Assembly: GCA_946478765.1 (NCBI GenBank)
Contig: CAMLDH010000001.1
Span: 1 to 44,516, forward strand
Source of the DNA: an uncultured Oxalobacteraceae bacterium
GTDB lineage: Bacteria; Pseudomonadota; Gammaproteobacteria; Burkholderiales; Burkholderiaceae
DNA length: 44,516 bases
Direction: 5' to 3'
Below, one piece after another: positions 40,124 through 43,931 of this stretch. Made by a program: the position numbers and the translations under genes. The notes below the pieces were generated by a model that was not told where the DNA came from, made no database searches, and saw nothing but the letters and a program-made list of their open reading frames with translations. The first letter of the stretch is position 1. Each line of letters begins with the position of its first letter.

Positions 40124-40537
40124 TTAGAATGTCCCGAACAGTTTCAATGCAACCAATGCAGTCAACACCAGGCTGACCGCAAGAACACCGGTAGCGGATT
40201 TTCGCGCGCTGTCTTTGTCCAGACCGACATGCGTATCCATGATAAGGTGCCGAATACCGGAACAGAAATGCTGCAGATAGCCCCACGCCATCACCAGGAT
40301 CAACAGCTTGACGAACCAGCCGGAGGTGAACCCCTTGAAATATTCAAATGAAATTTCGGATGTCAGACTTTTTTCGAGCAAGTACAAAATCAACGGCAAC
40401 AGCAGGACCAGCAGGGCTCCACTGACGCGGTGTGCGAATGACACAATACTTGCCAGCGGCATGCGATATTTCGGCAAGTCCTTGATGAAATGAATATTGC
40501 GAAATTCCGGCCGACTTTTTTTTCCGGCTTCAGACAT
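40124..40537 (-). CDS. sdhC: Succinate dehydrogenase cytochrome b556 subunit
   Basis: The 137-residue subunit begins at ATG 40537 with GGGAGG upstream. It has RPEFRNIHFIKDLPKYRMPLASIVSFAHRVSGALLVLLLPLILYLL, with the conserved Ser/Arg quinone-site region. The haem-ligand histidine lies in YLQHFCSGIRHLIMDTHVGLD. Three membrane helices are evident. It is the first sdh gene. The 147-base gap to gntR contains a TTGACA (minus strand, 40634-40639) without a well-spaced -10, so an sdh promoter here is possible but unproven. Confidence 0.95.
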   Translation of the reverse strand: MSEAGKKSRPEFRNIHFIKDLPKYRMPLASIVSFAHRVSGALLVLLLPLILYLLEKSLTSEISFEYFKGFTSGWFVKLLILVMAWGYLQHFCSGIRHLIMDTHVGLDKDSARKSATGVLAVSLVLTALVALKLFGTF

Positions 40538-40684
40538 AACAAAACCTCCCTGATCTAAATAATTCCGTGATTTTCGCCTATTTTGTGCAGCACACCAATA
40601 AGTATTGTGCGCAGTAGGCAATATATTGGTTTGTCAAGATCAAAGATCAATAAGTCCACGCCTGACATCGACCGACGCACACCC

Positions 40685-41476
40685 TCAACTCAACTCATTC
40701 TGATAATGGTGACGGTCCGTCAGATATAAGCCCCGCCGCACTTCAACCGGCTTGTTGCCATACGTGTACGACACCCGCTCAACACTCAGTAGCGGCGTAT
40801 TGACAGCAACCGCCAACAACTCGGCGACATCCTTATCCGCCGCGACTGCGCGAATCTTTTCTGCCGCATGAATCATATGGGTGCCGAACTCACTCTCGAA
40901 CAAGCCATACATCGGTCCCTTGTATTCAATCAGGCGCTCCGCGGTCAACCCCTTGAAAATGATACCGGGCAGCCAAAGCTCTTCCAGAATCGTCGGGGCG
41001 CCGTCAAATGACTGCACCCGCTTGATGAAGATCACGGAGTCGCCCGATTTGATGTCGAGTTGACGCGCAACTTCGGCCGGCGCACGTAGACGCTTGACTT
41101 CAATGATCCTATTGTCAGGGTAGTGTGCCTCGCCCAGATCCGGCATCAAGCGCAGAAAACGGAATTGGGCGCGCGCTTCGTGATGCGTCGCAACAAAAGT
41201 CCCTTTACCTTGCCGCCGCACCACCAGATTTTCCGCAGACAATTCGTCGATCGCCTTGCGTACCGTTCCCTGACTGACCTTGAAACGATTCGCCAGTTCG
41301 ACTTCGCTTGGGATCAGTTCGCCCGGCTTCCATTCGCCCGATTGCAAACTTTGCGTAATCAGGGCCTTGATTTGCTGATAGAGCGGACTAAAGGTAGGCG
41401 ATGCTCCGGGAGTAGAAATCCCTGCGCCAGCACTAGGCGCGCCATTATTGGTCAAATGGGGTGGAATGAAACTCAT
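40685..41476 (-). CDS. GntR-family transcriptional regulator (UTRA domain)
   Basis: The 263-residue regulator has a winged-HTH domain (PLYQQIKALITQSLQSGEWKPGELIPSEVELANRFKVSQGTVRKAIDELSAENLVVRRQGKGTFVA) and a C-terminal UTRA ligand-binding domain (LRAPAEVARQLDIKSGDSVIFIKRVQSFDGAPTILEELWLP...VAVNTPLLSVERVSYTYGNKPVEVRRGLYLTDRHHYQNEL), i.e. the HutC subfamily. It sits directly upstream of sdhC and divergent from mdh, in the centre of the TCA genes. Control of those genes and of itself through the palindrome at 41533-41552 is a strong inference; the effector is unknown. Confidence 0.93.
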   Translation of the reverse strand: MSFIPPHLTNNGAPSAGAGISTPGASPTFSPLYQQIKALITQSLQSGEWKPGELIPSEVELANRFKVSQGTVRKAIDELSAENLVVRRQGKGTFVATHHEARAQFRFLRLMPDLGEAHYPDNRIIEVKRLRAPAEVARQLDIKSGDSVIFIKRVQSFDGAPTILEELWLPGIIFKGLTAERLIEYKGPMYGLFESEFGTHMIHAAEKIRAVAADKDVAELLAVAVNTPLLSVERVSYTYGNKPVEVRRGLYLTDRHHYQNELS

Positions 41477-41532
41477 AGGTTATGATTTCACCATAAAACT
41501 GCGGTTGCCGTCCAGCAAAAAGTGATAACTTA

Positions 41533-41552
41533 TATGTCTTATATAAGACATA
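41533..41552. promoter_or_regulatory. Perfect 20-bp palindrome, candidate GntR operator
   Basis: TATGTCTTAT followed directly by its exact reverse complement ATAAGACATA. The symmetry, the T/A-flanked GTCTTAT..ATAAGAC core and the position 57 bases from the gntR start codon fit a HutC-subfamily GntR operator. It overlaps the likely gntR promoter and ends nine bases before the -35 box of the mdh-directed promoter, so repression of gntR and either activation or repression of mdh are possible. Confidence 0.65.
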
Positions 41553-41561
41553 AGATAGGTA

Positions 41562-41590
41562 TTGACAGAGTAGCGCTGCAAGCCTACACT
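41562..41590 (+). promoter_or_regulatory. Sigma-70-type promoter reading toward mdh
   Basis: A consensus -35 TTGACA (41562-41567), an exact 17-base spacer and a -10 TACACT (41585-41590) form the best promoter seen in the window. Transcription would start near 41597, giving an mdh leader of about 285 nucleotides that contains element C. Confidence 0.7.
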
Positions 41591-41743
41591 CGCGGGCAAC
41601 ATTTGCTCTATAGCGGCGGAATTGCAAGGGACGGTTGTTGTCACGCACAATCCACCCTTTTTATCTGCACTAAACAGACTGTGACTTGCCAAGTTTTCAC
41701 CGGTATTATTACAGGCTCACGGAAATTTATTTTTTAATGTTGA

Positions 41744-41880: not shown

Positions 41881-42870
41881 ATGGCTAAAGCCCCCATGCG
41901 TGTTGCCGTCACCGGCGCCGCCGGCCAGATCGGCTATTCACTGCTGTTCCGCATCGCCAACGGCGATATGCTCGGCAAAGACCAACCGGTCATCCTGCAA
42001 TTGCTCGAAATCCCCGATGAGAAAGCGCAAAAAGCTCTCAAAGGCGTGATGATGGAAATCGACGACTGCGCGTTCCCGCTATTGGCCGGCATGACCGCGC
42101 ATAGCGATCCGATGACCGCGTTCAAGGATATCGATGTCGCCTTGCTGGTCGGCGCCCGTCCGCGCGGCCCAGGCATGGAGCGCAAGGATCTGCTCGAGGC
42201 CAATGCCCAGATCTTCACGGTGCAAGGCAAGGCACTGAATGCAGTCGCATCGCGCAATGTCAAGGTTCTGGTCGTCGGTAACCCGGCCAATACCAACGCC
42301 TATATCGCCATGAAATCGGCGCCGAACCTGCCAGCCAAGAACTTTACCGCGATGCTGCGCTTGGACCACAACCGCGCCCTGTCTCAAATTGCGGCGAAGA
42401 CCGGCAAACCGGTGTCGTCGATCGAAAAGCTGTTCGTATGGGGCAATCACTCCCCGACCATGTACGCCGACTATCGCTACGCAACGATCGACGGCCAGTC
42501 GGTCAAGGCGATGATCAACGACGACGCATGGAACAAGGATGTATTCCTGCCGACCGTCGGCAAGCGCGGCGCTGCGATCATTGAAGCGCGCGGCCTGTCT
42601 TCTGCTGCGTCGGCTGCCAATGCGGCCATCGATCACGTACATGACTGGCTGCTCGGCACCAACGGCAAGTGGACCACGATGGGGATCCCGTCCGATGGTT
42701 CGTATGGCATTCCGGAAGGCACAATGTTCGGTTTCCCGGTCACCACCGAAAATGGCGAATACAAGATTGTCCAGGGTCTGGAAGTCGATGCATTCTCGCA
42801 AGAGCGCATCAACGTCACGCTGAAAGAATTGCTCGAAGAGCGTGATGGCGTCAAACATCTCGTAGGCTAA
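41881..42870 (+). CDS. mdh: Malate dehydrogenase
   Basis: The 329-residue enzyme interconverts malate and oxaloacetate with NAD. It has the nucleotide-binding [19 protein letters not shown], the substrate arginine loop [33 protein letters not shown] and the catalytic histidine in [15 protein letters not shown]. It is the longer, cytosolic-like MDH type found in many betaproteobacteria. The ATG at 41881 has GGAG seven bases upstream; the longer open frame lacks this. It is divergent from the gntR-sdh block. Confidence 0.98.
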
Positions 42871-42959: not shown

Positions 42960-43931
42960 ATGCATCCCTCCGAGGCTTTATTCCAAGGCAAGCGCCAGCC
43001 GGTTTCGATTCCGGTCTGCGACCACTACGCCGGCTCCGAAAAACTGATGCGTAAATCGCTAGTCCTGCAACAAGAACTTGGCCCTGTTTTTGATATTACC
43101 TTCGATTGCGAAGATGGCGCCGGCGCCGGTGGTGAAGAAGCGCACGCGCGCTTGATCGCCGCGCTGATTGCGAGTGATGAAAATCGCTTCGAGCGCATTG
43201 GCGCACGCGTGCACGATATCACCAGCGAATTCTTCGAACAGGATGTCGCGCTCATTTGCAAAGGCGCGGCAAAGCGCCTTGCTTACCTGGTGATACCCAA
43301 AGTCGATAGCGCCGCCGACGTCGGCAACGCACTCGCGGTCGTCAATCGCTACGCAAACAAAGCCGGCCGCTCGAATCTGCCGGTTCACGTATTGATTGAA
43401 ACCCACGGCGCACTGGCAGACGTGCACGCAATCGCCGCCCTGCCCCAGATTGAATGCCTGTCTTTCGGCATCATGGATTTTGTATCCGCGCACTATGGCG
43501 CGATTCCCGGCGCCGCAATGCGTACGCCGGGTCAATTCACGCATCCTCTGGTGGTGCGCGCCAAGCTTGAAATCGCGGCGGCCTGCCATGCGCATGGCAA
43601 GGTTCCCTCGCACAATGTCACGACTGAAATCAAGGATACCGCGGTTGTGGCGAACGATGCGAACCGCGCGACATCTGAATTTGGCTATACCCGGATGTGG
43701 AGTATTCATCCGGACCAGATCAAACCAATTGTAAAGTCCCTTTCCCCGCGCAGTTCCGAAGTCAACGAAGCATCGCAGATTCTGACCGCAGCACAGAACA
43801 TGCAATGGGGACCGATACAACATAACGGCAAGCTGCATGACCGCGCCAGCTACCGATACTATTGGACGATACTCCAGCGGGCAAAATCGAGCGGTCAGCC
43901 GATACCTGAATTGGCGGCCGCTCTCTTATGA
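42960..43931 (+). CDS. CitE-like HpcH/HpaI-family lyase
   Basis: This 323-residue protein belongs to the HpcH/HpaI aldolase/citrate lyase beta family (TIM barrel). Landmarks are PVSIPVCDHYAGSEKLMRKSL, FDITFDCEDGAGAGG (metal/CoA-thioester site), YLVIPKVDSAADV, VLIETHGALADVHAIAALPQIECLSFGIMDFVSAHYG and GYTRMWSIHPDQIKPIV. Members cleave malyl-CoA, citramalyl-CoA or citryl-type thioesters. No citrate lyase alpha or gamma subunit is nearby, so a CoA-thioester lyase acting near the TCA cycle is more likely than citrate lyase. It lies 89 bases after mdh in the same direction. Confidence 0.85.
   Translation: MHPSEALFQGKRQPVSIPVCDHYAGSEKLMRKSLVLQQELGPVFDITFDCEDGAGAGGEEAHARLIAALIASDENRFERIGARVHDITSEFFEQDVALICKGAAKRLAYLVIPKVDSAADVGNALAVVNRYANKAGRSNLPVHVLIETHGALADVHAIAALPQIECLSFGIMDFVSAHYGAIPGAAMRTPGQFTHPLVVRAKLEIAAACHAHGKVPSHNVTTEIKDTAVVANDANRATSEFGYTRMWSIHPDQIKPIVKSLSPRSSEVNEASQILTAAQNMQWGPIQHNGKLHDRASYRYYWTILQRAKSSGQPIPELAAALL

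Follow-up and report, generated by a model that had tools for sequence, protein, structure and literature searches.

A palindrome between gntR and mdh of an uncultured Oxalobacteraceae bacterium: probable operator of an SdhR-type regulator with a predicted regulon at the isocitrate node

In the DNA analysed here, a stretch of 44,516 nucleotides from an uncultured Oxalobacteraceae bacterium (the window), a perfect palindrome of 20 bp lies between a gene for a GntR-type regulator and the malate dehydrogenase gene mdh. The comparison with related loci and genomes indicates that this palindrome is very probably the DNA site of SdhR, a predicted regulator. The GntR protein encoded next to it, a member of the HutC subfamily, would be the SdhR orthologue that uses it as operator, with a dimer bound to the 12-bp core TCTTATATAAGA. 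Related genomes of the family carry the same operator before gntR together with mdh, before the isocitrate lyase gene aceA, the isocitrate dehydrogenase gene icd and the aconitase B gene acnB (where this gene is present), and before a gene of the DUF3579 family. The predicted regulon therefore comprises the isocitrate node, that is the steps which make, oxidise and split isocitrate, and the malate step, with autoregulation of the regulator gene. SdhR is expected to act mainly as a repressor, which leaves its promoters once a small metabolite of the TCA or glyoxylate cycle binds to the UTRA domain. Binding by the regulator, repression and the ligand are what we infer from this comparison, and taken as a whole we regard this reading of the sequences as likely.

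The palindrome, its promoter and the adjacent regulator

The features of the window to which the following refers are:

41533..41552, no strand assigned: perfect 20-bp palindrome TATGTCTTATATAAGACATA, two exact 10-base halves
41537-41548: 12-bp core TCTTATATAAGA inside the palindrome
41530..41555, no strand assigned: candidate extended operator, 24/26 identical to the published SdhR consensus
41562..41567, plus strand: -35 element TTGACA of the mdh promoter; 80/80 aligned rows have a TTGACA-like hexamer here, at 18-19 bases distance to the operator centre
41585..41590, plus strand: -10 element TACACT of the mdh promoter; most relatives have TAAACT or TACACT at this place
41881..42870, plus strand: mdh, malate dehydrogenase (NF003916, 575 bits against a cut-off of 271)
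40685..41476, minus strand: gene of the gntR/sdhR-type regulator, 263 aa, with a GntR winged helix (residues 32-95) and a UTRA ligand domain (120-256)
40124..40537, minus strand: sdhC, which opens the sdh-gltA-odh cluster downstream of gntR (PF01127, TIGR02970; start codon placed by reading)
40570..40601, minus strand: conserved element TTATTGGTGTGCTGCACAAAATAGGCGAAAAT between gntR and sdhC, found in many, not all, rows of an alignment of 81 such gaps, with no operator core

The palindrome is located between the start of gntR (41476, minus strand) and the start of mdh (41881, plus strand). It is separated from TTGACA by 9 bases, and a spacer of 17 bases follows before TACACT; the two exact 10-base half-sites and the promoter to their right, as described in the sequence-only reading of this DNA, were confirmed at these coordinates. 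Transcription of mdh is expected to start near 41597, which would result in a leader of about 284 nt. A scan of this leader against Rfam gave no match at the gathering threshold, and together with the little conservation beyond the -10 element this led us to reject a structured mdh leader. Directly 3′ of mdh, at 42960-43931 on the plus strand, a gene for an HpcH/HpaI (CitE-like) lyase was observed, which scores under the cut-off of three matched NCBIfam models.

The 20-mer occurs a single time in the window when up to three mismatches are allowed, and at least one match was obtained in 0 of 100 dinucleotide shuffles. The 12-bp core is also single with up to two mismatches; 28 of 100 shuffles reach one as well (mean 0.34), so that the window alone is no proof of the core and the proof has to be supplied by conservation.

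The regulator has the architecture of the HutC subfamily, a GntR helix-turn-helix domain (Pfam PF00392, 5.5e-22) followed by UTRA (PF07702, 2.6e-33), and its fold agrees with this. Its score for the HutC histidine repressor equivalog TIGR02018 is 130 bits, below the cut-off of 220, which makes it a member of the HutC subfamily other than HutC itself. A structure model built from 50 aligned sequences reached a mean pLDDT of 84.5 and bears out the fold only. The best structural match is 3CNV, the UTRA ligand-binding domain of a Bordetella bronchiseptica protein (TM 0.94-0.95 on the target, 55-56% identity by Foldseek), which is also the best match of the ligand domain by sequence (E 9.8e-56). 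This protein is probably an orthologue of the window regulator; the title of the entry, "putative GntR-family transcriptional regulator", states no function. Within the ligand domain, R153, E245 and R247 are invariant in the alignment, which is compatible with a carboxylate ligand, although this is only a hint from sequence.

SdhR was predicted as a regulator of the HutC subfamily with the motif TCTTATGTCTTATATAAGACATAAGA (Suvorova et al. 2015, PMC4494728). The extended site of the window agrees with this motif at 24 of 26 positions, and the sdh-adjacent gene as well as the combination of GntR and UTRA domains are shared, so the pair of palindrome and regulator is already published as a prediction. 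In the main text of PMC4494728, SdhR occurs once, with its motif, and none of the terms isocitrate, malate, TCA, succinate dehydrogenase and Burkholderi is used there. The present analysis adds a predicted SdhR regulon. Judged by titles and abstracts, SdhR with this meaning was not met in the other literature matches listed: in PMC8396210 the name stands for a Staphylococcus surface protein, and in the accessible text of PMC5343134 it does not occur. Within the searched literature, which covers few subscription journals, no Burkholderiales regulator that links icd with aceA and mdh was found.

Conservation in the family and across the order

Missing conservation of the palindrome in other Oxalobacteraceae had been named beforehand as an observation that would speak against a regulator site. 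The core was found upstream of gntR in all 80 orthologous loci fetched, which represent the best 80 of 541 with a close gntR relative; 79 cores are exact and one (L013) has a single mismatch. Their distance to gntR is 44-176 bases, and the closest regulator among these relatives, from a Herminiimonas assembly, matches at 89%. An alignment of 80 rows, consisting of the window and 79 loci (L020 was dropped on account of contig ends), shows a core that is invariant in every row except L013 while the flanks drift. Strong conservation is also seen in the right arm AAGATA, after which TTGACA and TAAACT or TACACT come at a set distance, with little conservation further on. Measured from the operator centre, the TTGACA-like -35 element starts after 19 bases (58 rows) or 18 bases (22 rows), and 76 of the 80 rows have the best -10 element another 17 bases along. 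Two more conserved blocks, CGTCCAG.AAAA and TTTCACCACAAA, were noticed between the operator and gntR (window 41480-41530), one of which may be the ribosome-binding site of gntR.

Across the order, the 30 best homologues of the regulator (49-84% identity) were analysed in loci of about 3.7 kb. Between 400 bases upstream and 30 bases inside the gene, the core is exact in 24 cases, has one mismatch in four and two in one, and is absent in one (L199). A narrower window of 350 bp upstream gave 22 exact cores, three with one mismatch, one with two and four regions with none for the same homologues. The mdh gene adjoins gntR in 25 and sdhC in 28 of these 30 loci; the sdh linkage implied by the name SdhR is thus seen in the latter as well as in the window, where sdhC lies downstream of gntR. 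Ten more homologues (41-50% identity) were taken from genomes without an exact core: six have a core with one mismatch (TCTTATAAAAGA in five of them), one has a core with three mismatches, and three of 41-42% identity have none. No core with up to two mismatches was found at the homologues G041 (62%) and L199 (60%) and at these last three. Nine further loci of the order, in which gntR is only 30-37% identical, all keep the exact core, mdh and sdhC.

Exact cores are present in 67 of 120 order genomes, namely in 64 of the 96 with a gntR match versus 3 of the 24 without (G077, G083 and G127). Among the sites listed, 40 of 45 order genomes carry an exact core in the region from 30 bases inside to 260 bases upstream of a gntR homologue. 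The 28 new order-wide loci with an exact core belong to gntR (20, among them the nine with a gntR of 30-37% identity), aceA (2), acnB (1) and icd (1), and four lie elsewhere: L419 (from G083), L420 (from G127), L433 and L445, the first three of them in or between unrelated frames. Within the family, the small genomes G011 and G018 (2.0 and 2.2 Mb) have neither a gntR match nor an exact core, and the third genome without an exact core, G015, has a core with one mismatch at its 69% homologue. The proposal that the palindrome is the regulator's own operator is supported by the 80 family loci and by this tracking of distant homologues in the order.

Genes with and without the operator

The exact core is a rare element: it was found in 37 of 40 family genomes, 1-4 times in each, and five relatives contain it only 3-4 times per genome. 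The reversed pattern gave one match in each of 2 of the 40. Every exact core was fetched in 24 of the 41 site-bearing family genomes, and all 74 cores lie upstream of gntR/mdh, aceA, icd or a DUF3579 gene, at a distance of 41-246 bases measured from the operator centre. They are distributed over gntR (24), aceA (26, comprising 21 and 5 of a second type), icd (21, comprising 17 dimeric and 4 monomeric enzymes) and DUF3579 (3). Dimeric and monomeric icd belong to different Pfam families, PF00180 and PF03971, which argues that the operator was attached to this reaction more than once. The same operator at non-homologous icd genes and at two types of aceA is strong natural evidence of function. 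The genome G036 has a dimeric icd without and a monomeric icd with the core (L161). In another genome, G003, both forms occur together and each has an operator (L087, exact; L255, one mismatch, identified as icd by eye).

In a gene-first scan, the 350 bp upstream of the best 30 loci per gene were searched for the core. For aceA, 29 of 29 regions contain it exactly. For icd, where the count refers to the dimeric enzyme only, 17 exact cores and 6 with one mismatch were obtained from 30 regions, and for DUF3579 the corresponding numbers are 4 and 19 of 30; a core with up to two mismatches is absent in seven of the 30 regions of either gene. The acnB sample consists of 5 of the 40 genomes, those matching the gene, and includes three exact cores, one with one mismatch and one with two. 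Under the same limits of two mismatches and 350 bp, the controls aceB (malate synthase, 0/29), sucC (0/29) and recA (0/30) gave no core, and malate synthase and sucC were rejected as targets. Mononucleotide shuffles of the scanned regions contain a core with up to one mismatch in at most 0.2%. Genome-wide, five genomes have 5, 6, 6, 6 and 6 cores with up to one mismatch versus 8, 1, 4, 7 and 0 for the reversed control. Since one-mismatch cores are no rarer than this control, it is solely the gene-first test which carries the assignment of acnB and DUF3579. Eleven stretches with one mismatch were located, at acnB (L253, L256), icd (L255) and DUF3579 (L254, L257, L258); at the other five (L259-L263) no target gene was recognised by eye, and these were treated as chance occurrences.

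Both icd and aconitase, which the sequence-only reading had proposed for a motif search, carry the site in relatives, and isocitrate lyase is a target that was absent from its gene list. The icd, aceA and acnB genes of the window organism are situated outside the window and presumably follow the relatives. In the upstream regions of DUF3579 genes (PF12112; L084, L157, L162, L215-L244), a near-operator TCTTCTATAAGA is fused to a TATAAT -10 element at most scanned loci. The gene is located downstream of another gene in L084, L157 and L162, which is CobD/CbiB-like in L084. Upstream of aceA (e.g. L083, L094, L177), a second conserved block, CGCATCGCGAAA...TAAGTCATTGAAAAT, was observed to the left of the operator and is possibly the site of another aceA regulator.

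The genes of the sdh-gltA-odh cluster did not reveal such a site. No second core with up to one mismatch was detected in the 80 gntR loci (up to 10 kb on either side, several shortened by contig ends), and no further core with up to two mismatches elsewhere in the window. With no second core and no core in the conserved element of the gntR-sdhC gap, sdh, gltA and odhA are not supported as direct targets of this motif; transcripts that start at the gntR promoter could still extend into them by read-through. The TTATTGGTGTGCTGCACAAAATAGGCGAAAAT element itself is possibly a separate sdh promoter or the site of another factor. Thus, the earlier idea of a direct coordination of mdh with sdh-gltA-odh through the palindrome was not supported, and the proposed TCA-cycle switch holds in so far as the regulon belongs to central carbon metabolism, but with direct targets other than sdh, gltA and odhA. 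Just upstream of odhA, the window contains a sucA RNA motif (RF01070, 35153-35235, minus strand, 85.8 bits), which gives this TCA cluster a second layer of control, at the RNA level.

Mode of regulation, rival explanations and known systems

The position of the operator relative to the promoter differs between the target genes. In an unguided search for -35 and -10 elements, the core of DUF3579 genes stands directly before the predicted -10 in 19 of 23 sites, with its centre at -18. Judged from a CATAAT element, 16 of 23 icd sites have their operator centre at about +18/+19, and for aceA the operator abuts a TTGTTG-TATTAT-like promoter, giving a centre at about -43, in 19 of 30 sites; both counts were guided by elements already seen in the consensus. 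The unguided search yielded scattered positions for aceA, icd and acnB. At the acnB genes of L265 and L266 the core overlaps the presumed -35 element, as judged by eye, and the mdh operator is placed before the -35 with its centre at about -54. As far as promoters can be predicted, these positions fit repression of icd, acnB and DUF3579. For the mdh and aceA operators no clear repressor position is apparent, and they are perhaps open to activation.

Accordingly, SdhR could be a dual regulator, which binds immediately before the -35 element to activate mdh and aceA and which represses its own gene, icd, acnB and DUF3579, although we hold this to be rather unlikely. It would fit the constant distance of 18-19 bases between the mdh operator centre and the -35 in 80/80 rows, and the aceA promoter starting 2-3 bases after the core in 19/30 sites; the centres at about -54 and about -43 are roughly one helical turn apart. 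However, the unguided scan gives that place of the aceA promoter in only 6/30, a dimer bound there could equally hinder RNA polymerase, and proteins of the HutC subfamily are mostly repressors. The dual model assumes an identical regulon and differs just in the sign of regulation, which limits our confidence in a mainly repressing SdhR.

It is much less probable that the regulator serves only its own promoter and mdh and that another factor with the same motif binds the sites at icd, aceA and acnB. Many genomes encode several GntR proteins, and three order genomes have cores without any gntR match, as such a factor would allow. Nevertheless, among the sites listed, 40 of 45 order genomes have the core at the gntR homologue, G011 and G018 without a gntR match are also without an exact core, and the cores of L419 (G083), L420 (G127) and L433 are situated within unrelated frames or between them. 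The palindrome is AT-rich and close to promoters, and a two-mismatch core is not rare by composition, as seen in 28/100 shuffles, so one could also think of chance or of a structural element (hairpin, terminator or AT-rich promoter DNA) which is no protein site at all. This we consider negligible, given the reversed exact pattern in 2/40 genomes versus cores in 37/40, the core invariant in 79/80 rows while its flanks drift, and its recurrence at specific enzymes.

The data narrow to one protein, one operator and a short list of targets, and one little-studied protein may set the carbon flow between the citric acid and glyoxylate cycles. For the DUF3579 Pfam family, the operator site gives a metabolic lead. 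More speculatively, and with distinctly lower confidence than in the mainly repressing autoregulated SdhR, the protein might serve Burkholderiales as master sensor of the isocitrate branch point. Its ligand would then probably be isocitrate, citrate or glyoxylate, since the operator tracks the reaction (both icd forms, two aceA types, acnB and mdh), and the DUF3579 protein would join the TCA/glyoxylate switch as a new component or modulator.

Among known systems, the aminosugar-phosphate sensors NagR/YvoA and DasR belong to the same HutC subfamily and share domain order and fold with SdhR, but control a different regulon. YvoA was solved on a palindromic operator (4WWC). Of the "ERLR" stretch of DasR, SdhR keeps the first arginine (R153) and not the second, and the invariant R247 of SdhR is a valine in DasR; from these differences we infer that the ligand of SdhR is likely a different one. 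Control of aconitase, isocitrate lyase or further TCA genes by a single regulator is exemplified by AcnR and RamB in Corynebacterium, CcpC in Bacillus and PdhR in Enterobacteria. These proteins belong to other families or subfamilies and recognise other motifs than SdhR, and the likeness is a purely functional analogy.
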